From assembly GCF_000145035.1 (NCBI RefSeq), contig NC_014388.1, positions 1-62,500 of the forward strand: DNA of 62,500 nt. Direction: 5' to 3'. This DNA comes from Butyrivibrio proteoclasticus B316. Its GTDB lineage: Bacteria; Bacillota; Clostridia; Lachnospirales; Lachnospiraceae. The notes under the pieces were generated by a model. It searched no databases. It worked only from the letters and a program-made list of their open reading frames with translations, and was not told where the DNA came from. This document shows positions 36,879-48,286 of the stretch, piece by piece. A program made the translations under genes and the position numbers. The number at the start of each line of letters is the position of its first letter. Positions within the stretch are counted from its first letter, which is position 1.

Positions 36879-39275
36879 ATGTATCAGGTTGTAAAACGCG
36901 ATGGCAAGATCGCAGATTTTAACATTTCCAAGATTTCATCGGCTATAACTAAGGCTTTTATAGCACTTGACAAGGATTATCATTCGAGTGTCATAGATCT
37001 TATTGCGCTCAGAGTCGCATCAGATTTTGAGGGCAAGGTTGCAGACGGCAAGATCACGGTTGAGGAGATCCAGGACAGCGTTGAGAAGGTGCTGTCTGAG
37101 GCCGGATATACTGATGTTGCCAAGGCTTATATTCTGTACCGCAAACAGCGAGAGAAGGTCCGTAACGTTAATTCTGCACTTGTTAATTACAAGGATATTG
37201 TTAACGATTACCTCAAGATAAATGACTGGAGAGTCAAAGAGAACTCTACAGTTACGTATTCAATCGGAGGCCTGATCCTGTCTAATTCCGGTGCTATTAC
37301 AGCTAATTACTGGCTTTCTGAGGTTTATGACGATGAAATAGCTTCAGCGCATAGAAGTGCGGCTATTCATATTCATGACCTTGCTATGCTCAGCGGTTAT
37401 TGCGCTGGCTGGAGCCTCAAACAACTGATACAGGAAGGGCTTGGTGGAGTTCCTGGTAAGATCACATCTTCACCTGCATGCCATCTCTCAACTCTTTGTA
37501 ATCAGATGGTTAATTTCCTTGGGATCATGCAGAATGAGTGGGCGGGAGCTCAGGCGTTTTCTTCTTTTGATACATACCTTGCGCCATTTGTTAAGGTTGA
37601 TAACTTGTCTCAGGCTGAGGTTAAACAGTGTATTCAGTCTTTTGTTTATGGAGTCAATACACCAAGCAGATGGGGAACGCAGGCGCCATTTTCTAATATA
37701 ACTCTGGACTGGACAGTACCTAATGACCTCAAGAACCTTAATGCTATCGTTGGTGGCAAAGAGCTTGATTTCACTTATGGTGAATGCCAGCACGAGATGG
37801 ATATGGTCAATAAGGCATTTATCGAAATAATGATCGAGGGAGATGCCAATGGAAGAGGATTTCAGTATCCTATTCCCACATATTCAATAACAAATGATTT
37901 TGATTGGAGTGAGACCGAGAACAACAAGCTTTTGTTTGAGATGACTGCTAAATATGGTACTCCATATTTTTCCAATTATATCAATTCTGATATGGAGCCA
38001 AGCGATGTTCGCTCTATGTGTTGCAGACTTCGTCTTGACCTTAGAGAACTCAGGAAGAAATCCGGCGGTTTCTTTGGATCAGGTGAGTCAACAGGTTCTA
38101 TAGGTGTTGTAACCATCAACATGCCTAGAATTGCTTATCTTGCCAAGGATGAAGCTGATTTTTATAAGAGACTGGATCATCTGATGGATATAGCAGCCCG
38201 CTCGCTTAAGACCAAGAGAACTGTAATTACTAAGCTTCTTGAACAGGGCCTTTATCCTTATACCAAGAGATACCTTGGAACCTTTGCTAACCATTTCTCA
38301 ACAATTGGCCTTATCGGAATGAATGAGGTTGGCCTTAATGCGAAATGGATAGGCGCAGATATGACTGATGAACGTACTCAGAACTTCACCAAGGAGGTTC
38401 TGGTGCATATGAGAGACAGGCTCTCTGATTATCAGGAAAAATATGGTGACCTCTATAACCTTGAGGCAACTCCGGCAGAGTCAACTACATATCGTTTTGC
38501 CAAACATGATAAAGAGGAGTATCCGGATATCATTACAGCTAACATGAATGGTACACCTTATTACACCAATTCATCGCATCTTCCGGTAGGTTATACTGAG
38601 GATATTTTTTCTGCACTTGATATTCAGGATGAGCTTCAGACTCTTTACACTTCCGGAACAGTTTTCCATGCTTTTCTTGGGGAGAAGCTTCCTGACTGGA
38701 AGGCCGCAGCAAGTCTCGTACGCAAGATTGCAGAGAATTATAAGCTTCCTTATTACACAATGTCTCCTACATATTCAGTATGTAAGAATCATGGTTATCT
38801 TGTTGGAGAACAGCCGATTTGCCCTCATTGTGGAGATAAGACAGAGGTTTACAGCCGAATTACCGGCTATTACCGTCCGGTAGCTAACTGGAATGATGGT
38901 AAGGCGCAGGAGTACAAGGACAGGAAGGTTTATGATATTGGCCATTCTACTTTGAAGCGAAATGGAAAAGGAACAAGCTTTGTAGAAGCCGCAGTTAAGA
39001 AGTCCAATAAAGATTCCAGCAGTAATGCGCTTAATGTTGATGATGCAATCATGCTTTTTAAGACGCAGACTTGTCCGAACTGTAAAATAGCCGGAATGAT
39101 GCTGGATAAAGCCGGAGTGAATTATCGCGTTTTGGATGCAGAAGAGAATCCTGAGCTTGTAGAGAAATATAACATTATGCAGGCTCCAACACTGATAATA
39201 CCGGGTGAAGACGGATTCAGGAAGCTTAATGGAGTATCTGACATCAAGGGATGGCTTGGAGAGAGAATTTCATGA
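36879..39275 (+). CDS. nrdD: Anaerobic ribonucleoside-triphosphate reductase fused to a C-terminal glutaredoxin-like domain
   Basis: Class III reductase that makes deoxynucleotides under anaerobic conditions. Residues 1-90 are an ATP-cone. The catalytic barrel has a Cys pair at 381-382 (SMCCRLRLD). The radical site is RITGYYRP, with Gly at about 663, just after a zinc region that includes CPHCGD. The last ~75 residues (about 725-798) form a separate glutaredoxin/NrdH-like domain with CPNC at 732-735 and APTLII. That domain suggests reduction by a thiol system instead of formate, as reported for Neisseria bacilliformis NrdD. An AGGGGG site precedes the ATG. Confidence 0.95.
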   Translation: MYQVVKRDGKIADFNISKISSAITKAFIALDKDYHSSVIDLIALRVASDFEGKVADGKITVEEIQDSVEKVLSEAGYTDVAKAYILYRKQREKVRNVNSALVNYKDIVNDYLKINDWRVKENSTVTYSIGGLILSNSGAITANYWLSEVYDDEIASAHRSAAIHIHDLAMLSGYCAGWSLKQLIQEGLGGVPGKITSSPACHLSTLCNQMVNFLGIMQNEWAGAQAFSSFDTYLAPFVKVDNLSQAEVKQCIQSFVYGVNTPSRWGTQAPFSNITLDWTVPNDLKNLNAIVGGKELDFTYGECQHEMDMVNKAFIEIMIEGDANGRGFQYPIPTYSITNDFDWSETENNKLLFEMTAKYGTPYFSNYINSDMEPSDVRSMCCRLRLDLRELRKKSGGFFGSGESTGSIGVVTINMPRIAYLAKDEADFYKRLDHLMDIAARSLKTKRTVITKLLEQGLYPYTKRYLGTFANHFSTIGLIGMNEVGLNAKWIGADMTDERTQNFTKEVLVHMRDRLSDYQEKYGDLYNLEATPAESTTYRFAKHDKEEYPDIITANMNGTPYYTNSSHLPVGYTEDIFSALDIQDELQTLYTSGTVFHAFLGEKLPDWKAAASLVRKIAENYKLPYYTMSPTYSVCKNHGYLVGEQPICPHCGDKTEVYSRITGYYRPVANWNDGKAQEYKDRKVYDIGHSTLKRNGKGTSFVEAAVKKSNKDSSSNALNVDDAIMLFKTQTCPNCKIAGMMLDKAGVNYRVLDAEENPELVEKYNIMQAPTLIIPGEDGFRKLNGVSDIKGWLGERIS

Positions 39276-39283
39276 TTTTATGC

Positions 39284-39309
39284 TGAGCCAGGCCTTACGG
39301 CCTGGCTCA
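39284..39309 (+). terminator. Hairpin between nrdD and the carbonic anhydrase gene
   Basis: The 11-bp stem TGAGCCAGGCC / GGCCTGGCTCA has a 4-base loop TTAC, 8 bases after the nrdD stop. No T tract follows on the plus strand, so it may be a processing or 3'-stability element or only a partial terminator. Confidence 0.6.
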
Positions 39310-39327
39310 TTGAAAGGATATATAGTT

Positions 39328-39837
39328 ATGAGAAAAATTGATAAAAGTGTATTTATTGCTCCGGGAGCTCAGGTAATAGGCGATGTTACTATAGGAAGTG
39401 ACAGCGGAATATGGTACAACGCTGTAGTAAGAGGAGACTCCAAGGAAATTCATATCGGAAAGCGTACTAATATCCAGGATCTTGCTGTTCTTCATGTTGA
39501 TAAGGAATATCAACTTACTGTTGGCAATAATGTTACTATCGGGCATAGTGCTATTGTTCATGGATGCAGTGTTGGTGATAACGTGCTTGTTGGAATGGGC
39601 GCGATCATAATGAATGGTGCACATATCGGAAATAACTGTATTGTTGGTGCAGGAGCACTTGTTACAGAGAATACGGTTATTCCTGACGGAATGATTGCTT
39701 ACGGCAATCCTGCCAAGGTTATAAGGCCTGTGGAAAATCAGGATAAAATGAGAATATTAGAAAATGCTGATATCTACGTACAGCATGCGACAGAGGCCAA
39801 AATGGGATTGAGGCATCGCAAAGCAATGCCTCTTTAA
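39328..39837 (+). CDS. Gamma-carbonic-anhydrase-like hexapeptide protein
   Basis: Trimeric left-handed beta-helix protein of 169 residues, similar to YrdA/PaaY-type gamma-carbonic anhydrases. Hexapeptide repeats run through most of the chain (IGDVTIGS, VGNNVTIG, HIGNNCIVGAG). Candidate zinc histidines are in AVLHVD, TIGHS and VHGC. Many relatives show weak or no anhydrase activity, so the enzymatic role is unproven. The start at 39328 was chosen over earlier in-frame ATGs because the earlier ones encode through the upstream hairpin and GAAAGGAT lies 9 bases upstream. Confidence 0.88.
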   Translation: MRKIDKSVFIAPGAQVIGDVTIGSDSGIWYNAVVRGDSKEIHIGKRTNIQDLAVLHVDKEYQLTVGNNVTIGHSAIVHGCSVGDNVLVGMGAIIMNGAHIGNNCIVGAGALVTENTVIPDGMIAYGNPAKVIRPVENQDKMRILENADIYVQHATEAKMGLRHRKAMPL

Positions 39838-39850
39838 TAAGTAACAAGTG

Positions 39851-40768
39851 TTATAATATTTTTTTGATCTTAAAGAATATCAGACTTCCAACTACTATGA
39901 ATATGCTCAGAACGATAACGACGGGATAACCTAAGCGGGATTCCAATTCAGGCATATATTTGAAGTTCATTCCGTACCAGCCTACGATGAGTGTAAGAGG
40001 CATGAAGATCGTTGTAACCACGGTAAGAACTGTCATTATACGGTTCTGCCTTACATCAAGCTGTGACTGATACAAGTCGTTTAACTGGATAGTATAGTCT
40101 CTTAAATGTGTGGCAGAATCATACAGTCTGTCTACTCTGCTGGAAAACATATGGAAGTATCTGAGGTTTTCTTCTTTGAAGAAACCATTTTCATTTTCTT
40201 CAAGTTCCTGTCCAAGATCAAGCAGCTGTTCATAGTGGATACGAAGATCCCTTATATCACCGCGGATATCATTGTTTCTTTCCATATGAGCAGTTTCTGC
40301 ATTGGACATGATCTCTTTTTCCAGACTATCCAGCTCTAATTCATACTTCTGCATAGTTCTCAGATCGTTATGAATGATCAATTCCAGAAAATCATACATA
40401 AAGCGTTCCAGACAGGGTTTTTTCCACTTTTTATAATGCTGGATTCTCCTGACAAGGCGTAAAGCTTCTTCGCCTTCGTCAATAAAGACAATACCGGTTT
40501 CATCAAGTACAAAAGAAAACTTTTGCGGTTCAGAGGTGTTTGAGGACTGAGTCGGTATATAAAATGTTCCGGTCAAGGAATCATAGTTGACCTCGGCCTT
40601 GGTGGTATATATTTCTTCACTGCTAAGATCAAAGTCTATACCCATATCAAAATTTTCATTCTGGGCGGCCCACTGCGCAGGAGTAAGTACAGCTACGTAC
40701 GGCTCTGCCGCGTCGTGACACTGTTCTGCACTACATTCCTCCAGGGCGTTTTTTATAAGAAAAAACAT
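39851..40768 (-). CDS. CorA-family divalent metal transporter
   Basis: Pentameric Mg2+/Co2+/Ni2+ channel. From ATG 40768 (AGGAGG site) it has 305 residues. The N-terminal ~240 residues are the cytoplasmic funnel with long helices. Two C-terminal membrane helices flank the conserved YGMNF selectivity motif (PLTLIVGWYGMNFKY), and the chain ends in a basic FKIKKIL tail. The ATG at 40789 is less likely. Its nearness to Ni-related genes is about 35 kb away, so magnesium is the default guess. Confidence 0.9.
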   Translation of the reverse strand: MFFLIKNALEECSAEQCHDAAEPYVAVLTPAQWAAQNENFDMGIDFDLSSEEIYTTKAEVNYDSLTGTFYIPTQSSNTSEPQKFSFVLDETGIVFIDEGEEALRLVRRIQHYKKWKKPCLERFMYDFLELIIHNDLRTMQKYELELDSLEKEIMSNAETAHMERNNDIRGDIRDLRIHYEQLLDLGQELEENENGFFKEENLRYFHMFSSRVDRLYDSATHLRDYTIQLNDLYQSQLDVRQNRIMTVLTVVTTIFMPLTLIVGWYGMNFKYMPELESRLGYPVVIVLSIFIVVGSLIFFKIKKIL

Positions 40769-40836
40769 GTGAAACCTCCTACCAATCAATACTTACAATG
40801 ACATAATAACACAGATACAAGGATATCTGCGCTTAT

Positions 40837-40865
40837 TTGCCATAAATATTTATGGTTCGTATAAT
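40837..40865 (+). promoter_or_regulatory. Promoter of the double-glycine peptide gene
   Basis: TTGCCA (40837-40842), a 17-base spacer and TATAAT (40860-40865) form a strong sigma-70-type promoter, 51 bases before the start codon. The spacer holds the dyad TAAATATTTA, possibly an operator. Confidence 0.7.
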
Positions 40866-40915
40866 TAAATAATAGTGTTTTTATGAGGAAAGTATTTAAG
40901 AAGGGAGATAAAATC

Positions 40916-41098
40916 ATGAGTTTAGAGGCTAAAAAGGTGCTCTTGGACAGCGAACTTGAGACTGTCACAGGTGGCGCTCGTAAGATTCAGTTTATGAAGG
41001 TTGCATGCACTCACTGTAAAAAGATAATTCGCATCAATGTAGATGTTTCCGAAGCAAAATGCCCTTTCTGTAAGGAAATCAATACTTTCGCTGGCTAA
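40916..41098 (+). CDS. Small double-glycine-leader peptide with a zinc-ribbon core
   Basis: A 60-residue peptide from ATG 40916, with GGGAG 7 bases upstream. The first 20 residues, ending LDSELETVTGG, match double-glycine leaders of class II bacteriocin precursors (L..EL..V.GG). The expected mature part, about 40 residues starting ARKIQF, has two CxxC pairs, CTHC and CPFC, separated by about 15 residues, as in a zinc ribbon. No C39-peptidase transporter is nearby, so processing is unproven. It may be an exported peptide, a RiPP precursor, or a small zinc protein with a coincidental GG. The promoter and ribosome site are strong. Confidence 0.7.
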   Translation: MSLEAKKVLLDSELETVTGGARKIQFMKVACTHCKKIIRINVDVSEAKCPFCKEINTFAG

Positions 41099-41153
41099 AA
41101 ATCTTTTTCTAAGCATACCATGCCACTTTATTTCTATATGAATTGTTATTTGT

Positions 41154-41186
41154 TATAATAGCAATGTTCTGCGGTTATCGGCAGAA
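41154..41186 (+). promoter_or_regulatory. pnuC promoter and leader hairpin
   Basis: TATAAT (41154-41159) is followed by TTCTGC / GCAGAA (41167-41172 and 41181-41186) with an 8-base loop, about 35 bases before pnuC. No clear -35 box is seen. The hairpin is too small for me to call a known riboswitch. Confidence 0.4.
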
Positions 41187-41219
41187 ATTATTACATGTTT
41201 TAATGGAGTGAGATTTGGT

Positions 41220-41930
41220 ATGGAAAAGGTAAAAGAGGCAATTAGAAAAGAGTTTGCTGGCTGGAAAAAGTGGGAGGTAGCCTGGATTGTTCTGGCAACG
41301 GCAGTAATTCTGGGACTATCAATCTATTGGAAGGATTCTCTTATTGGAATTCTGGCGGCTGTTACAGGTATCTGGTGCGTTATTTTGACTGGAAAAGGTA
41401 AGCTTTCAAGCTTTTGGTTTGGAACTATCAATACGATTCTTTATGCGATCGTAGCATGGAGAGCGAGATACTGGGGCGAAGTAATGCTCAATCTTTTGTA
41501 CTACGTTCCTATGAACTTTGTGGGACTCTATATGTGGTCCAAGAACATGAACAGCGAGACAGAAGAGGTTGTCAAAAAGAGAATGACTCTTAAGGGCAGT
41601 CTTATCGCTTATCTTCTTGTTGCAGTTGGAACTGTAGCTTATGGATATGTGCTTAAAATGATGAATGGCACACTTCCATTTGTTGATGCTATGAGCACAG
41701 TATTTTCAATATTTGCTCAGATCTTGTGTGTTAAGAGATACATGGAGCAGTGGGTTCTCTGGGTAGTAGTAGATGTTGTTACAGTAATCATGTGGGTTTA
41801 CGCCTTTGCTACTGGCACAGGAGACATGGCAACAGTTCTTATGTGGAGCATTTATCTCATAAATGCCATAATAATGTTGGTAAAATGGATTTTAGATACC
41901 AGAGTTAATGCGACAACAAAAGAGGCATAA
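41220..41930 (+). CDS. pnuC: PnuC nicotinamide riboside transporter
   Basis: Membrane carrier that imports nicotinamide riboside for NAD synthesis. From ATG 41220 it has 236 residues, with seven hydrophobic segments after a short charged N-terminus. Typical segments are FWFGTINTILYAIVAWRARYWGEVMLNL (near 75, shown in part) and MNFVGLYMWSKN, with a WVLWVVVDVVTVIMW helix near the end. The frame extends back to a GTG at 41208, but the ATG has the better-spaced GGAG site. It is one base from nadR, so import and phosphorylation are coupled. Confidence 0.93.
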   Translation: MEKVKEAIRKEFAGWKKWEVAWIVLATAVILGLSIYWKDSLIGILAAVTGIWCVILTGKGKLSSFWFGTINTILYAIVAWRARYWGEVMLNLLYYVPMNFVGLYMWSKNMNSETEEVVKKRMTLKGSLIAYLLVAVGTVAYGYVLKMMNGTLPFVDAMSTVFSIFAQILCVKRYMEQWVLWVVVDVVTVIMWVYAFATGTGDMATVLMWSIYLINAIIMLVKWILDTRVNATTKEA

Positions 41931-41931
41931 T

Positions 41932-42936
41932 ATGTATAAGATTGGTATGTATGGCGGAACCTTTAATCCTATGCATAATGGGCATCTGGAGTGCATTATC
42001 AAGGCTGCATGCATGTGTGAGAAGCTCTATATCGTGCTCAGCATAGGCAATAACAGGGACGAAGTGGACTACAGAGTTCGTTATAGATGGCTGTATCAGG
42101 CTACCAAACATATAGGTAACGTCGAGATTTTTACAATATCAGATGATTGCGAAACCAAGCAGGAATACACTCTGGAAGCTTCTAAGGCTGATTCTGAATA
42201 TGTCAAAAAACATATCGGAGAGCCTATCGATGTTGTGTTCTGTGGATCTGATTACGATGCAGATAGCTTTTGGAACGTAAATTACCCTGATAGCGAATTC
42301 TATGTGTTTGAGCGAAATGATATCAGCTCAACAGCTATTCGCGAGGATCTTTATGGGCACTGGGACTGGCTGCCAACCTTTGTTAGACCTTATTATGTTA
42401 AAAAGGTGCTGCTGATAGGAGTTGAGAGCTCTGGTAAGTCGATAATGACTGTGAATCTGGCCAATTACTACAACACAAATTACATCGAGGAAGCTGGCAG
42501 GGATTTATCTGAGAAATCCGGCACCGATACACTGATGCTGGATGAGGATTTCACTGAGATTTTGCTTACTCAGAAGCTCAATGAGATGAAGACAGTAGAG
42601 CAGAGTAACAGAGTTCTTTTCTGCGACACAGATTGCCTTATCACTCAGTTTTTCCTAAAATTCCTAGGTGGTAATGAGGAAAACATCAAGCTTTCTGATG
42701 CTATTGATGCCCTTAACAGTTATGATCTGGTTCTTTTCCTGGCACCTGATGTTAAATGGGTTCAGGATGGCGACAGGAGCACTGAGATCAGAGATAATCG
42801 CGACAAATATCGCAAGATGATAGCAGATATCTATGAGTCTCATGGCAAGAAGTTTGAGTATATAGAGGGCGACTATCTTACTAAGTTCAATAGGTGTGTT
42901 GAGTTGGTGGATAAGATGCTTGCGCCACAGAAATAG
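41932..42936 (+). CDS. nadR: NadR-type bifunctional NMN adenylyltransferase / ribosylnicotinamide kinase
   Basis: Phosphorylates the imported riboside and adenylylates NMN to NAD. From ATG 41932 (AGAGG site) it has 334 residues. The N-terminal nucleotidyltransferase half has GMYGGTFNPMHNGH (residues 5-18) and ISSTAIRED near 132. The C-terminal kinase half has P-loop GVESSGKS near 161 and the CDTDCLITQFF region. There is no N-terminal helix-turn-helix, so unlike E. coli NadR it is not a repressor. A longer frame from 41908 overlaps pnuC and lacks a site. Confidence 0.94.
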   Translation: MYKIGMYGGTFNPMHNGHLECIIKAACMCEKLYIVLSIGNNRDEVDYRVRYRWLYQATKHIGNVEIFTISDDCETKQEYTLEASKADSEYVKKHIGEPIDVVFCGSDYDADSFWNVNYPDSEFYVFERNDISSTAIREDLYGHWDWLPTFVRPYYVKKVLLIGVESSGKSIMTVNLANYYNTNYIEEAGRDLSEKSGTDTLMLDEDFTEILLTQKLNEMKTVEQSNRVLFCDTDCLITQFFLKFLGGNEENIKLSDAIDALNSYDLVLFLAPDVKWVQDGDRSTEIRDNRDKYRKMIADIYESHGKKFEYIEGDYLTKFNRCVELVDKMLAPQK

Positions 42937-42938
42937 CA

Positions 42939-42978
42939 CATGAAAACAGCCCCAACCCTGAGCCAGGATTGAGGCTGT
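42939..42978. repeat. 40-bp direct repeat, copy A
   Basis: These 40 bases are identical to 46707-46746. The copies lie about 3.8 kb apart, in the same orientation, either side of the AAA/HNH gene pair. Similarity continues at lower identity past 42978 (shared CGTTT and AGTTAA blocks). Each contains a terminator hairpin. Confidence 0.9.
42945..42978 (-). terminator. Minus-strand terminator, copy A, ending the HNH/AAA operon
   Basis: ACAGCC and GGCTGT enclose a nearly complete hairpin ending in loop AGC. The two C-A mismatches on the plus strand become G-U pairs in a minus-strand RNA, which then has an unbroken stem followed by TTTT. So it works for leftward transcripts. It sits between nadR and the HNH gene and may also shield the two convergent units. 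Confidence 0.8.
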
Positions 42979-42994
42979 CTTTACGTTTTAATTA

Positions 42995-43053
42995 GTTAAG
43001 TCCGATGATTCCGCCAACGATTCCAACATTAACAGGAACGCTGAATATTACTG
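42995..43053 (-). pseudogene. Degenerate 3' end of a DUF4342 gene
   Basis: On the minus strand this stretch reads VIFSVPVNVGIVGGIIGLN then stop. It matches residues VVFSVPVNVGIVGGIIGL of the complete DUF4342 protein at 46759-47148. At the DNA level about 47 bases (43003-43052) align with 46868-46917, with around five differences. The last ~34 residues of the intact protein are missing here. Upstream coding sequence is absent, replaced by the HNH gene. It is therefore a truncated copy, with the terminator still attached. Confidence 0.8.
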
Positions 43054-44093
43054 TTTATATCGTAGTGGAGTTTGCCAAGGATTGAGTCCTTGATATCAGA
43101 TTCTCGGATATCCCCATAGAGGAGCCTGTCTACCTCATCTTCAGACGAGAATAGTCCCTTGTAGGTATTCATAACTTGTTTTTTGTAGTCTTGAGAGAAA
43201 ATATGATGTTTGAGCAAGATGTCTTTGACCACGTCCGCATGGTTTTGGTAGATTTTTTCAAGCTGGAAAGTTTTGCAATTCTCCTCTAATCTATTTGCTT
43301 GCGTTTTGCTGCCGTGTTCATCCTCGGTATTGTAATTCAGAGTTACATTCAATTGATCCTTGCCAAGGCCTATACATTCTATGTAATTCTCAGGAGTATA
43401 TCCGAATGTGAGCAGAGCATTGATATCAATATGTTCATAGGGGTTTAGATTATTTTTGTAGTTAAATGGCTTCTGCCCCTTAAAGCTTGAATTACATGTG
43501 TTACAGGATGGCACCAGATTGTATATGGACATGGAAAAATATGGATATAGAGCCTTGGGCAGGAAATGATCAAGATCTGCCCTTGATCGACCTTTGGACT
43601 TCCCCATATATATCGTGTTGATAAAGGCTCTGTTGCAATATGGGCATACAGAAAGATCTAATTTCAGTAAAAAGGCATAAGCACCCCAGTTCTTTCTGGA
43701 TTCGCCGGGGCGAAAACTTTTTTTGGATTTATCGGTGGGATCTCTTTTTGCAAAATTTTCATATCCAAGAGCATCTAAAATCGCATTTGAAAAAGATCTG
43801 TTTTTTGACTGACATTCATTAAATGCTTCATTATAATCTCTTTTTATGACTTCAAGTTCTGATTTCATCTTTTCCGGAGTCATGAGAAAGATGGATTCGG
43901 TATATTTGGTATCATCGCCAAGAAGTTCAACCTGGGTGATGAGATAGTCTACCAGCGTTTTGATTTTTGGGTTTCCCTGATAGATCTTTCTTTTTCTTTT
44001 TAGCGCATTAAGCCTTGTTTTGATGTTAGACTCATTGTATATGTAGTCTCTATGATTTTGCAGTATTTCATCTGTGAGCTCTATTCTAATCAT
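43029..44093 (-). CDS. HNH endonuclease, PtuB-like component of an ATPase/HNH module
   Basis: Probable DNA nuclease and effector of the upstream ATPase gene. The 354-residue protein has a long helical N-terminal half (1-140) and an HNH zinc-finger core: C150 and C153 (SVCPYCNR), catalytic-type DLDHFLPK (His 176), then C197 and C200 followed by Asn 201 (SCNTCNSS). This matches the CxxC-DH-CxxCN order of Septu PtuB-type nucleases, but the protein is longer. GGAG precedes the ATG and the gap to the ATPase is 24 bases. Its last ~7 residues are read from the degenerate DUF4342 copy, so the original C-terminus may have been replaced. Confidence 0.85.
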   Translation of the reverse strand: MIRIELTDEILQNHRDYIYNESNIKTRLNALKRKRKIYQGNPKIKTLVDYLITQVELLGDDTKYTESIFLMTPEKMKSELEVIKRDYNEAFNECQSKNRSFSNAILDALGYENFAKRDPTDKSKKSFRPGESRKNWGAYAFLLKLDLSVCPYCNRAFINTIYMGKSKGRSRADLDHFLPKALYPYFSMSIYNLVPSCNTCNSSFKGQKPFNYKNNLNPYEHIDINALLTFGYTPENYIECIGLGKDQLNVTLNYNTEDEHGSKTQANRLEENCKTFQLEKIYQNHADVVKDILLKHHIFSQDYKKQVMNTYKGLFSSEDEVDRLLYGDIRESDIKDSILGKLHYDINSNIQRSC

Positions 44094-44117
44094 GCTTTAT
44101 TCTCCGCAATTTAGATC

Positions 44118-46610
44118 TTAATTCTTTTGATGTTCAGCTCTTTCTTCTTTCAAACGTCTGAGTCTTTCTTCGGTATACTTAATTTCTCGGTCCAGTACGC
44201 TGAGAGTACTGTTTTTTAGCTTTTCCTCGCGCATTTTCTCAAGCTTGCGGCTTACGAGACTATCACCAACAATATCTATTATTTTTTTATCAATTCCTTC
44301 TTCGTCGAGATAGTTCTCGTCATAGTTCAATCTATACAGCATTTCGTTGATCTTGGATTTGGCAAAGCTTCCTACTACTCCTTTGTCCATGAAAAACTCA
44401 TTTATTAAAAGAGTAGTGATATTGGTACCAAAGGTTTTTCCAAGAATGCTACTATCTCTTACAGTTAGGCCTTCTTCGTTTAAGCCTTCCAGACACAGAA
44501 TGTTCGTCCTTGGAAGGTCAGACAGTATAAATGGAGAATTGGTGGAGAGTATCAGCTGTATATCCTTATCTTTAAAGAAGTAGCTGCTCATTTTAAGGAA
44601 ATTTAACACAAAGTTTTTCTGTGCATCTGGGTGTAGATACAATTCACCTTCATCAACCATTATTAGAAGCTCGCTCTTTTCGCTATCTATCTGTTCTGCA
44701 AGATTTCCAAGCCTACCCACCATGTCGAAATGTCCGTTATATCCGGAGCAAATATCATCGTGGTCGATCACGATGCCAAATGTCTGAGGTTTACACTTTT
44801 CATCTGTAAAGTCATTGATAAAGGCAAAAAATTCATCGCGAACTTTTTTATATTCGATCTGAGCAAACAGTAAGGTATCATGATTACTGTCTGCTTCCTG
44901 CTTCTCAGCTACAAAATCTACAGCAGATTTCTCGCTTAGAGTCACGAAATCTGCGTAAGTGTGTGAGTACTTTTTTAAGATGTTATCTACTATTTTCAGC
45001 TTTTTGCCTTCACTTCCAGCTGCGCTCATTTTTTGTTCTGTCATATGATTGTCCTGCTTGGCATTAAAATCTTTTAACACCTTGTCGGAGTCAGCGTCAT
45101 CAGTATTACTGTCAGATACAAGATTGGAAGCAGCTTGAGAATATACCAATTCTTCTATTATCTTATCAAGAATGTCTACGATGTTGTCCTTGGTGTCCTC
45201 TAAATCTACATCTTGATAATCCAGTACTTCATTTTCTATAGAATACATTATTGCTCCGTATTCCCCTGCAAGATCATGAAAGGAATCTTCTGCAATAAGA
45301 TCTCTGCACTTTTCTATTTCATCAGCTAATTCGCATGTGAAATCCTCGTCAAAAAGATAGTCAGGGGCTTCGATGAGTCTTTCTCTATACTCCTTAAGGA
45401 TGGTTATAGCATAATCAAACTTGTCTGCAGATGGGGATTCATTTACAGGGTCATCGTTGCTTTCATTTTCGTAATAGTTTTCTTTTTCCGTACGGACATG
45501 TTTGAAAGAATCAAGCTTGATACTTTCAGCATATTTATGAAGAGAGAATCTGTCCGTTTCATTATTGAGTTTAGACCATATCTGCTGGCAGACTTCTCCA
45601 ACGCTCAGGTCAGATTCTTTTATTGAATCTATTATTGTTTCTTCCAGTAAAAGATATCCCAGCTCATTTTGAAAGGCTTCTCTAAGGACTTTTTTTGTTT
45701 TTTTGCCCTGCGCTGACTCTTTTGCCCTTTGATCATCAATACTATTTTTTAGCCGATCGAGTAAATGCTCATCATCCTTAATGTCTGAATAAAGAGCATC
45801 TTTTTCCATATAATAATCCAACAGTGATATTTTTAATTTATCAGGAAAGTCGAACATTAAGGCATTATTTGTGGACAGGTCGGGATATTTGGCCATGAGC
45901 GCTACACGTTTAAGTATTTCGTTTTCCTTAAAGTCAGCAATCCCAAATTCATCGCGGATAAGATTGTCAGGAGCCATGCTTCTGATATTTCTTACAAATT
46001 CGTTTAGCATTTTGTTGGTGCAGATATCATCCAGATTGCTGGCTGTCTGTAACGGAGATGCTTTGTCAAAGACACCGGAAAAATAGATCTGCTTTTTCTT
46101 TTTCAACATATCTTTTTCTGGAAGTACTATTACATTTTTGTCGTAACCATGTGCTTTCAAGCTTGTATTAATATTGTCCAGAGTCTTGTTTTTATAAAAA
46201 TTGTGGATGTTTGTAGTGATAAACAACTGCTTGTCATCCAAGTTTTCATGAATCATAACGTAGCTGTACTGCGAAAGAGATGCATTGGAATTTTTGTCTT
46301 CTCTTAGAACATTGCTGATCATTCTAAGAACTGAAGTTTTGCCTGCGCTGTTACGACCAACAATTGCAGATATTTCGCGAACACCGGTGTTAATAACCGG
46401 CATATCTGAACTATATTCTTCATCTTCTTTGGAGAATCTGACAGTTTTATAGAAATCATAGATATATTCAGAAGTTTTTTTGGTAACTACAAGATAGGGC
46501 CACTCATGACCACTTTTTTTCATCTCATAAAAAAACGGCCCGCCAAGATTGATATTGATAGGAACCTTTATATCATTATATTCAGTAAGGCCAATATACC
46601 GTATTACCAT
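44118..46610 (-). CDS. Large AAA/ABC-type ATPase, PtuA-like component of an ATPase/HNH module
   Basis: Predicted sensor and motor of a defence-type module. From ATG 46610 (AAAGGGGACGGGG site) it has 830 residues. Walker A GRNSAGKTS is at about 85-93 after an N-terminal strand set typical of SMC/OLD-like ATPases. The Walker B segment MVDEGELYLHPDAQ is near 652, followed by the switch region LILSTNSPFILSDLP. In between, a ~450-residue helical, acidic insert (about 190-640) separates the two ATPase halves. The chain ends in a charged coiled coil. No TOPRIM nuclease domain is visible, unlike OLD proteins. Its partner is the HNH gene 24 bases downstream. It is larger than known PtuA. Confidence 0.85.
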   Translation of the reverse strand: MVIRYIGLTEYNDIKVPININLGGPFFYEMKKSGHEWPYLVVTKKTSEYIYDFYKTVRFSKEDEEYSSDMPVINTGVREISAIVGRNSAGKTSVLRMISNVLREDKNSNASLSQYSYVMIHENLDDKQLFITTNIHNFYKNKTLDNINTSLKAHGYDKNVIVLPEKDMLKKKKQIYFSGVFDKASPLQTASNLDDICTNKMLNEFVRNIRSMAPDNLIRDEFGIADFKENEILKRVALMAKYPDLSTNNALMFDFPDKLKISLLDYYMEKDALYSDIKDDEHLLDRLKNSIDDQRAKESAQGKKTKKVLREAFQNELGYLLLEETIIDSIKESDLSVGEVCQQIWSKLNNETDRFSLHKYAESIKLDSFKHVRTEKENYYENESNDDPVNESPSADKFDYAITILKEYRERLIEAPDYLFDEDFTCELADEIEKCRDLIAEDSFHDLAGEYGAIMYSIENEVLDYQDVDLEDTKDNIVDILDKIIEELVYSQAASNLVSDSNTDDADSDKVLKDFNAKQDNHMTEQKMSAAGSEGKKLKIVDNILKKYSHTYADFVTLSEKSAVDFVAEKQEADSNHDTLLFAQIEYKKVRDEFFAFINDFTDEKCKPQTFGIVIDHDDICSGYNGHFDMVGRLGNLAEQIDSEKSELLIMVDEGELYLHPDAQKNFVLNFLKMSSYFFKDKDIQLILSTNSPFILSDLPRTNILCLEGLNEEGLTVRDSSILGKTFGTNITTLLINEFFMDKGVVGSFAKSKINEMLYRLNYDENYLDEEGIDKKIIDIVGDSLVSRKLEKMREEKLKNSTLSVLDREIKYTEERLRRLKEERAEHQKN

Positions 46611-46706
46611 TTCCCCGTCCCCTTTTAAGTAATAGTGCAAATTAAGTATATTTTAGCACTCGGGCGAGACATTTACTATGAGGTTTGAGTTGTGATTCAT
46701 GAATGC

Positions 46707-46746
46707 CATGAAAACAGCCCCAACCCTGAGCCAGGATTGAGGCTGT
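46707..46746. repeat. 40-bp direct repeat, copy B
   Basis: Identical to 42939-42978. This copy is in its native place, 13 bases after the stop of the complete DUF4342 gene. Confidence 0.9.
46713..46746 (-). terminator. Minus-strand terminator, copy B, of the DUF4342 gene
   Basis: The same hairpin as copy A. Read leftward it has full pairing through G-U pairs and ends in TTTT, before the ATPase gene's upstream region begins. Confidence 0.85.
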
Positions 46747-46758
46747 ATTTGCGTTTGA

Positions 46759-47148
46759 TCAGTTAATTCCGTCGATGGTTCCGTCTTTGTGTACAACTTC
46801 AAGTTTGCATCCAAGACCGAATGCTGCAACTGAACCGGCAATCAATGCCCACGGAGCAGCAGCCAGACCGATAATTCCTCCAACGATACCAACATTAACA
46901 GGTACGCTGAATACTACTTCATCACCTTTTTTGATCTGGATTCTGTCAACATTGCCATCTTCAACCTTCTTTTTAAGCTTGTCGATCAGTTCCTTGATAT
47001 CATCACTGATTTCTTTTGAATCCGGCTGAATAAGCTTTATAGCTGCATCTACATCTCCGTCAGTTTTAACGAGGGCTTCCTTTGCAGCCTTAAAATCCAC
47101 ACCTGTCTCTTCCATAACCTTCTCTACTGCCTGTAATGTTATTTCCAT
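46759..47148 (-). CDS. DUF4342 protein with an N-terminal UBA-like domain
   Basis: A 129-residue protein. Residues 1-40 look like a UBA/TS-N fold as in EF-Ts (EKVMEETGVDFKAAKEALVK, then DGDVDAAIKLI). A charged helix (about 47-62) leads to a DUF4342 region (about 68-120), with VPVNVGIVGGIIG and a hydrophobic AAPWALIAGSVAAFGLG that could insert in a membrane. Function unknown. The ATG has an AAGGAGAATAA site on the minus strand. The end is marked by terminator copy B. A truncated relative of its 3' end lies at 42995-43053. Confidence 0.85.
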   Translation of the reverse strand: MEITLQAVEKVMEETGVDFKAAKEALVKTDGDVDAAIKLIQPDSKEISDDIKELIDKLKKKVEDGNVDRIQIKKGDEVVFSVPVNVGIVGGIIGLAAAPWALIAGSVAAFGLGCKLEVVHKDGTIDGIN

Positions 47149-47353: not shown

Positions 47354-48286
47354 ATGGATAATACCAATCTTAAAATCACAGAACTTATAGAAAATATGCA
47401 AAAAAGGCTGTTAGGCAAGGATGAGGTGATAAAGAGTGCAGTGACTTGTCTTATTGCTGGAGGACATTTGCTTCTTGAAGATGTTCCGGGAGTTGGCAAA
47501 ACATCTCTTGCCAAGGCGCTTGCAGACTCTGTTTCAGTTTCTTTTTCCAGAATACAGTGCACGCCTGATACCACACCTTCAGACATTACAGGCCTTTCTA
47601 TATATAGTCCCGCCAGGGAAAGCTTTCAGGTGGTTCCGGGACCGGTGTTAAATAACATTGTCCTTGCGGATGAGCTCAACAGAACGTCTCCCAAGACGCA
47701 GTCTGCGCTATTGGAAGTTATGGAAGAGCACAGGGTAACAATTGATGGGCATGAGTATCCTGTACCTGAGCCGTTTATGGTCATTGGAACACAGAATCCT
47801 TCTGATATGGCAGGTACATATCCGCTTCCGGAGTCTCAGCTGGACAGGTTTATGATCAAGCTTTCGCTCGGATATCCGAATTCGGCCGCTTCAGAGGATA
47901 TAGCAAGGCGCTTTTTGAGCGGTGAATTACATGATAAGACTACTCCGGTCCTGTCAGGACAGGATATTATCAGTATGCAGAGGGAAGCCGGTAAGGTTAG
48001 CATTCATGACAACCTTAGAACCTATGCGGTCAGTATAATAGAGGCAACTAGAAATAAGGCAGAGATTTCATGTGGGGCCTCTACAAGAGCTCTTTTGGCT
48101 ATGCTGCGGTGCTCTCAGGCGCTGGCTTATATGGAGGGGCGTGATTACTGCATTCCGGAGGATATTGCAAATGCTGCCAGATTAACGATTCCGCACAGAC
48201 TTATTCTTACCGCAGAGGCGAGGCTTAGCCGCGTTACTAAGACAGATATGGTTAAAAAGATACTTGAACAAGTGAAGGTTTCATGA
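47354..48286 (+). CDS. MoxR-family AAA+ ATPase
   Basis: Chaperone-like ATPase that acts with DUF58 and other proteins in maturation of complexes or envelope stress. The 310-residue protein has Walker A VPGVGKTS (44-51), Walker B IVLADELNR and the RTSPKTQSALLEVMEE segment typical of MoxR. The sensor GTQNPSDMAGTYPLPESQLD is intact and a C-terminal lid follows. GGGGG lies 5 bases before the ATG. The stop overlaps the start of the DUF58 gene by 4 bases. The 205-base upstream gap shows only a weak promoter (TTGCGA at 47293). Confidence 0.93.
   Translation: MDNTNLKITELIENMQKRLLGKDEVIKSAVTCLIAGGHLLLEDVPGVGKTSLAKALADSVSVSFSRIQCTPDTTPSDITGLSIYSPARESFQVVPGPVLNNIVLADELNRTSPKTQSALLEVMEEHRVTIDGHEYPVPEPFMVIGTQNPSDMAGTYPLPESQLDRFMIKLSLGYPNSAASEDIARRFLSGELHDKTTPVLSGQDIISMQREAGKVSIHDNLRTYAVSIIEATRNKAEISCGASTRALLAMLRCSQALAYMEGRDYCIPEDIANAARLTIPHRLILTAEARLSRVTKTDMVKKILEQVKVS

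Follow-up and report, generated by a model that had tools for sequence, protein, structure and literature searches.

Septu systems pair an ATPase, PtuA, with an HNH nuclease, PtuB, in a complex reported as 6:2, and ATP is said, in work by Li et al. in 2024, to inhibit PtuAB. Several such pairs have been characterized: PtuAB of Septu EcB88 needs both its Walker and its HNH residues and tRNA-Tyr is cut during infection (PMC13096335), PtuAB of Retron-Eco7 depletes tRNA-Tyr, Septu of E. coli ATCC25922 is cited as targeting nicked DNA (both PMC11555353), and PtuAB of retron Ec83 is held silent by retron DNA (PMC12948488). PDC-M62 is a phage defense candidate of PADLOC. A study of the Bacillus cereus group found 203 calls of this candidate to be duplicates of Septu calls and kept the published name instead (PMC11811056). 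In the literature searched, PDC-M62 is named in that paper alone, the accessible portions of that paper and of three others on candidate systems hold no test of it, and no paper was found on Septu together with Butyrivibrio. In this report, we analyzed the first 62,500 nucleotides of contig NC_014388.1 of the rumen bacterium Butyrivibrio proteoclasticus B316 (hereafter the window). Two genes on its minus strand (43029-46610) probably form a retron-free, PtuAB-like (Septu-like) anti-phage system belonging to the PDC-M62 branch. The system was probably acquired by a Butyrivibrio-type chromosome through recombination at a DUF4342 3' end and would work as an ATP-gated HNH nuclease.

A preliminary description of this DNA had reported two leftward genes, 24 bases apart, for an 830-residue ATPase and a 354-residue HNH nuclease, and the open frames are as it gave them (pLDDT, predicted local distance difference test):

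44118..46610, minus strand: ATPase gene (PDC-M62A, PtuA-like predicted fold), 830 residues from the ATG at 46610; E 2e-77; pLDDT 83.9
44991..45590, minus strand: coding part of the acidic helical region of the ATPase, about residues 341-540, placed by occupancy, composition and helices with approximate limits; it holds most of the clade-specific residues
43029..44093, minus strand: HNH nuclease gene (PDC-M62B, PtuB-like predicted fold), 354 residues; E 3e-74; pLDDT 92.1

The mechanically called open reading frame of the ATPase starts at a TTG at 46640 and has 840 residues, versus 830 from the ATG. Both features of a PDC-M62 system were found, the best PADLOC match of each protein being to the models of that candidate and the genes being neighbors on one strand. 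In the ATPase, Walker A (G85-T92) and Walker B (LLIMVDEGELYLHP, 648-661) are intact and about 565 residues apart (564 by pattern), which corrects the insert of about 450 residues first given between them. In the nuclease, D175-H176, N192 and the Cys pairs 150/153 and 197/200 are intact, and both Cys pairs, D175, H176, N192, N201 and K205 are invariant among 51 aligned sequences. A promoter scan gave promoter-like sites not above those in shuffled sequences (12 versus a mean of 14.9).

Structural comparison of both proteins led to the two Septu subunits. The predicted structure of the ATPase matched PtuA ahead of other folds, and that of the nuclease matched PtuB first, over nearly the full length of PtuB, in a comparison with 28 aligned chains, too few for the absence of other nucleases from the list to count against them. 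The locus thus shares with Septu both predicted folds, that is, an ATP-binding cassette (ABC) ATPase like PtuA and an HNH nuclease like PtuB with its HNH residues, together with the Walker residues and a conserved gene pair; it differs in the weakness of the sequence similarity and in size, the ATPase having 830 residues versus 465 (PDB 8ee4) and the nuclease 354 versus 234 in the solved chain (8eea_G). The best solved structural matches of both subunits come from the type I-A retrons Ec78/Eco7 and Ec83 (Septu type II), which share the PtuA and PtuB folds, whereas reverse transcriptase and Rfam retron RNA do not lie beside the pair here. PARIS (AriA) and Gabija (GajA) gave weaker and shorter structural matches than PtuA and were rejected, as their alignments stop near residues 713-742 whereas 17 of the 21 PtuA rows extend to about 800, and the partner here is an HNH nuclease rather than AriB or GajB. 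Together, the predicted structures of both proteins and the pairing conserved in relatives bear out the initial proposal of a Septu-like ATPase and HNH nuclease without a retron, and on these modeled folds the identification of the pair as retron-free PtuAB-like, in the PDC-M62 branch, is well supported.

The pairing was followed in a scan of a species-genome collection, which kept 80 nuclease loci, 75 of them with an open frame of at least 200 residues (the five without one were dropped). An ATPase frame with both Walker patterns adjoins the nuclease in 56 of the 75 (49 upstream, 7 downstream), and an ATPase-profile match lies directly upstream in 10 more, where the motif filter failed or a contig end cuts the frame, so that relatives of the two proteins do occur together, with ATPase evidence beside 66 of 75 nucleases. 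Of the remaining nine, five (L069, L076, L080, L094, L097) have no ATPase, and the other four start no more than 241 bases from a contig end. All seven downstream cases are in Streptococcus (L111, L112, L114, L115, L116, L123, L125), with the nuclease gene first and the ATPase gene second, the reverse of the other 49. The PDC-M62 relatives found here span Bacillota, Bacteroidota, Campylobacterota, Aquificota, Spirochaetota and Cloacimonadota. Within the genus, the nuclease profile matches 9 of 79 genomes, B316 included, two close relatives with a match being G361 (apparently strain INlla14) and G365; in the family sample, 13 of 299 match the single protein sequence. Phage carriage was rejected, with matches in 1 of 50,697 phage records and three loci in viral contigs.

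We also compared the surroundings of relatives, using 140 proteins near 38 loci (from 195 selected out of 421 eligible, on crude gene calls). These matched 204 PADLOC families at E <=1e-20, where one protein may match many families, and the 25 families listed include type I and II restriction-modification, Hachiman, Zorya/Dpd helicase, SIR2, QatC, AriA and PDC-M09. A control of 122 proteins from contigs of two same-genus relatives, which is not taxon-matched, gave two families, mad3 (10 members) and mad8 (1), both taken as generic. The mad3 model, with 10 of the 122 control proteins (L142-L150), seems unspecific here. Of ten picked by hand, 6 matched at 1e-30, in four loci. This small test, with its imperfect control, favors the suggestion that relatives lie in defense islands. 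The same neighborhoods bear on the rival that survives best, namely that this is a PtuAB-derived toxic pair kept for a non-phage purpose such as plasmid exclusion or the selfish stabilization of its own DNA. Such a role would fit the occurrence of relatives on plasmids (36 of 72,556 records); we nevertheless consider it unlikely, because the neighbors of relatives include restriction-modification, Hachiman-like and other defense genes and because the PtuAB fold is known from phage defense (PMC13096335, PMC11555353). A defense role of the pair is likely.

For the complex, its gating by ATP, the trigger and the target, we infer the following course. The ATPase would probably oligomerize like PtuA and hold the PtuB-like HNH nuclease, and in the resting cell ATP binding most likely keeps this complex silent. 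Infection, or a nucleotide change caused by it, would free the nuclease, which may then cut phage or nicked DNA, or tRNA, as in the studied PtuAB pairs; the cutting would halt phage growth, with the infected cell probably being sacrificed. It is from those studied pairs, and from the inhibition that ATP reportedly exerts, that an ATP-bound ATPase assembly silencing the nuclease until infection appears likely. The predicted folds of both subunits tie a widespread candidate, PDC-M62, to PtuAB, which makes this mechanism directly testable.

Larger proteins had also been taken as a sign of a distinct type. That part did not stand for the nuclease, since the branch already exists as PDC-M62 and 354 residues are ordinary there (median 334, n=56); it does hold for the ATPase, which is large even there, its 830 residues lying about 180 above the median of 646 among the 56 pairs. 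The median Walker pattern spacing of these pairs is 393.5, and only the ATPases of INlla14 (577) and Viridibacillus (569) resemble that of the window. The window ATPase belongs to a clade with about 170 extra residues, and most of the clade-specific ones fall within an acidic helical region (26-28% Asp+Glu). The 49 ATPases outside the clade almost never have residues 341-380 and 501-540 (occupancy 3-8%), and residues 421-460 are uncommon among them (21-34%). As modeled, this insert suggests an added regulatory or docking part of the ATPase.

The clade, whose branch has 100/100 support (five rows in the tree), also departs from ABC ATPase rules. The signature motif reads SGYNG or SGFNG in 6/6 clade rows versus an S-x-G-E/Q-like form in the other ATPases of the alignment, and just before it the window ATPase and two others have Cys in place of the usual signature Ser. 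At the H-loop His position, Asn occurs in all six clade rows and 10 others (16/55), while G623, D653, E654, H660 and P693 are invariant in the 55 aligned ATPases and the Walker A residues nearly so. Two further clade proteins have the same signature and Asn, and the more distant P0135 is intermediate (STGHN with Asn); the clade is rare, with at least seven protein clusters among the matches listed. A single origin of the H-loop Asn was rejected, because the tree needs four changes, two of them forced by the starred branches; the point is not pressed, as many end branches are long. In ABC ATPases generally, an H-loop without His suits a sensor more than a motor, and by this analogy the altered signature and the Asn suggest a sensor with poor ATP hydrolysis. 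Natural departures of this kind (H-loop Asn in 16/55, a signature changed in one clade) could uncouple hydrolysis from ATP binding in how Septu-like nucleases are controlled. A bolder version, which we hold to be a long shot, sees in the Butyrivibrio-type ATPase a PtuA converted into a slow ATP switch (C/S-SGYNG, H-loop Asn). Its acidic helical insert would then stand in for the retron DNA of retron-Septu as a built-in nucleic-acid mimic, keeping the HNH nuclease closed until displaced by a phage product.

The position of the pair was first described as lying between an intact DUF4342 gene and a degenerate fragment of one, and the surrounding features agree, with a Pfam match on one side and direct repeats on the other:

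41908..42936, plus strand: nadR-like gene (cytidylyltransferase and AAA_28; the name nadR is given here), left neighbor, collinear with relatives G335 and G308
42939..42988, minus strand: terminator repeat, nadR-side copy, 50 nucleotides, 96% identical to the other copy; terminator-like
42998..43052, minus strand: DUF4342 gene remnant, 96.4% (53/55) identical to its G335 counterpart and 89% to the intact copy
43029..43052, minus strand: final seven codons of the nuclease gene with its stop, within DUF4342-derived sequence
46707..46756, minus strand: terminator repeat, copy adjoining the intact DUF4342 gene, placed by repeat match; terminator-like
46759..47148, minus strand: intact DUF4342 gene, 129 residues; Pfam PF14242, E 6.2e-19

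The fragment at 42939-43052 is the 5'-truncated 3' end of a DUF4342 gene with its terminator, and it forms direct repeats with the intact side of 54 (89%) and 50 nucleotides (96%), a length and identity beyond chance; relative to G335, the remnant lacks about 99 nucleotides internally. In G335 and G308, the nadR-like gene and DUF4342 stand side by side without the module, and a nuclease profile search of these two genomes gave no match. Identity between the window and G335 is 82.5% over 38000-40600, 98.0% over 40700-42000, 90.6% over 42001-42936, 59/59 in the terminator stretch and 96.4% in the remnant, and beyond the module it is 84.5% in the intact DUF4342 gene and 77.3% in MoxR, the ordinary level between genomes (G335-G308, 87.1% in DUF4342 and 77.4% in MoxR). 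G308 lacks such a tract (84.3% on the aligned part, 81.3%, and 83.6% in the remnant); its terminator is 98.2% identical too, so the terminator alone says little. By this identity pattern, the module borders a G335-like tract, and the DUF4342 alleles flanking it differ from each other. From these comparisons we infer that DNA flanked by G335-like sequence came in and recombined at the 3' end of DUF4342; a circle bearing this 3' end, integrated by a single crossover, would produce the same layout. The empty sites and the chimeric junction fit the earlier view of a mobile, acquired module, in which only the two genes lie between the repeats. An integrase-made insertion was set aside on this gene content, no search aimed at integrase families having been made.

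This junction is also what could make the pair a decayed or inactive copy, with the C-terminal end of the nuclease replaced by the insertion and the signature and H-loop of the ATPase changed. The final seven residues of the nuclease are indeed DUF4342-derived, its closest relatives ending differently, and G365 retains a remnant only, a truncated nuclease relative of 237 residues without an ATPase match beside it (L173:3793-4503), which is a decayed copy. However, neither frame is interrupted or shortened, every catalytic residue is present, the effect is limited to those last seven residues, and the motif changes are common to the whole clade and therefore old, so that we regard decay as even less likely than the toxic pair.

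Several points nevertheless weigh against a functional Septu-like defense pair. Besides the replaced end of the nuclease, supplied down to its stop codon by the remnant, and the altered ABC motifs, through which ATP control may differ, 5 of the 75 nuclease relatives have no ATPase despite room for one, and the window itself is no defense island, its flanks being collinear with relatives. In addition, matches to Septu models are weak (PADLOC PtuA1 1.6e-12, PtuB1 6.2e-8) and far behind PDC-M62, the NCBIfam models for retron Ec78 PtuA and PtuB stayed below their cut-offs (36.1 of 500 and 15.8 of 150 bits), and the nuclease profile reached a solved relative at E 0.03 at best. That the pair is the effector part of a retron with a reverse transcriptase acting from elsewhere is very improbable: PtuAB does serve type I-A retrons, and two reverse transcriptase matches occur in the genome, but both (C1:1528334, on another contig, and C2:136366) lie outside the window (C2:1-62500), no Rfam match occurs at 40-50 kb of the window, and the ATPase start lies about 96 bases from the terminator repeat, in line with the first description, which had seen neither a reverse transcriptase nor a retron RNA in the window.

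The neighboring genes show some further features. The MoxR/DUF58-like genes of the window start at 47354, beyond DUF4342, and in Butyrivibrio sp. INlla14 (L052:10001-12041; L174 is the same region) a pair of this kind runs up to the very start of a MoxR ATPase gene, with a DUF58-like gene after it. A conserved link to the MoxR-DUF58 operon was rejected, as the 96 nuclease-match loci hold, beyond INlla14, one weak MoxR match 7.6 kb off in L175; a link to DUF4342 was likewise rejected, the DUF4342 protein of the window being unmatched in these loci, which differ in length. That protein (46759-47148, minus strand) has weak UBA/NAC/EF-Ts-like N-terminal matches under the curated cut-offs, and relatives frequently have more than one DUF4342 match per genome. 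In the G308 contig (L146-L150), DUF4342 and MoxR are separated by about 6.8 kb of other DNA that the window and G335 lack, which indicates gene turnover beyond DUF4342 as well. To the left, the pnuC-like region at 40700-42000 represents a recent exchange tract, ending near the module. Finally, a 71-residue open frame at 40883-41098 (plus strand) contains LDSELETVTGG followed by two CxxC pairs; the motif resembles a double-glycine leader, and the product may be a small exported peptide.
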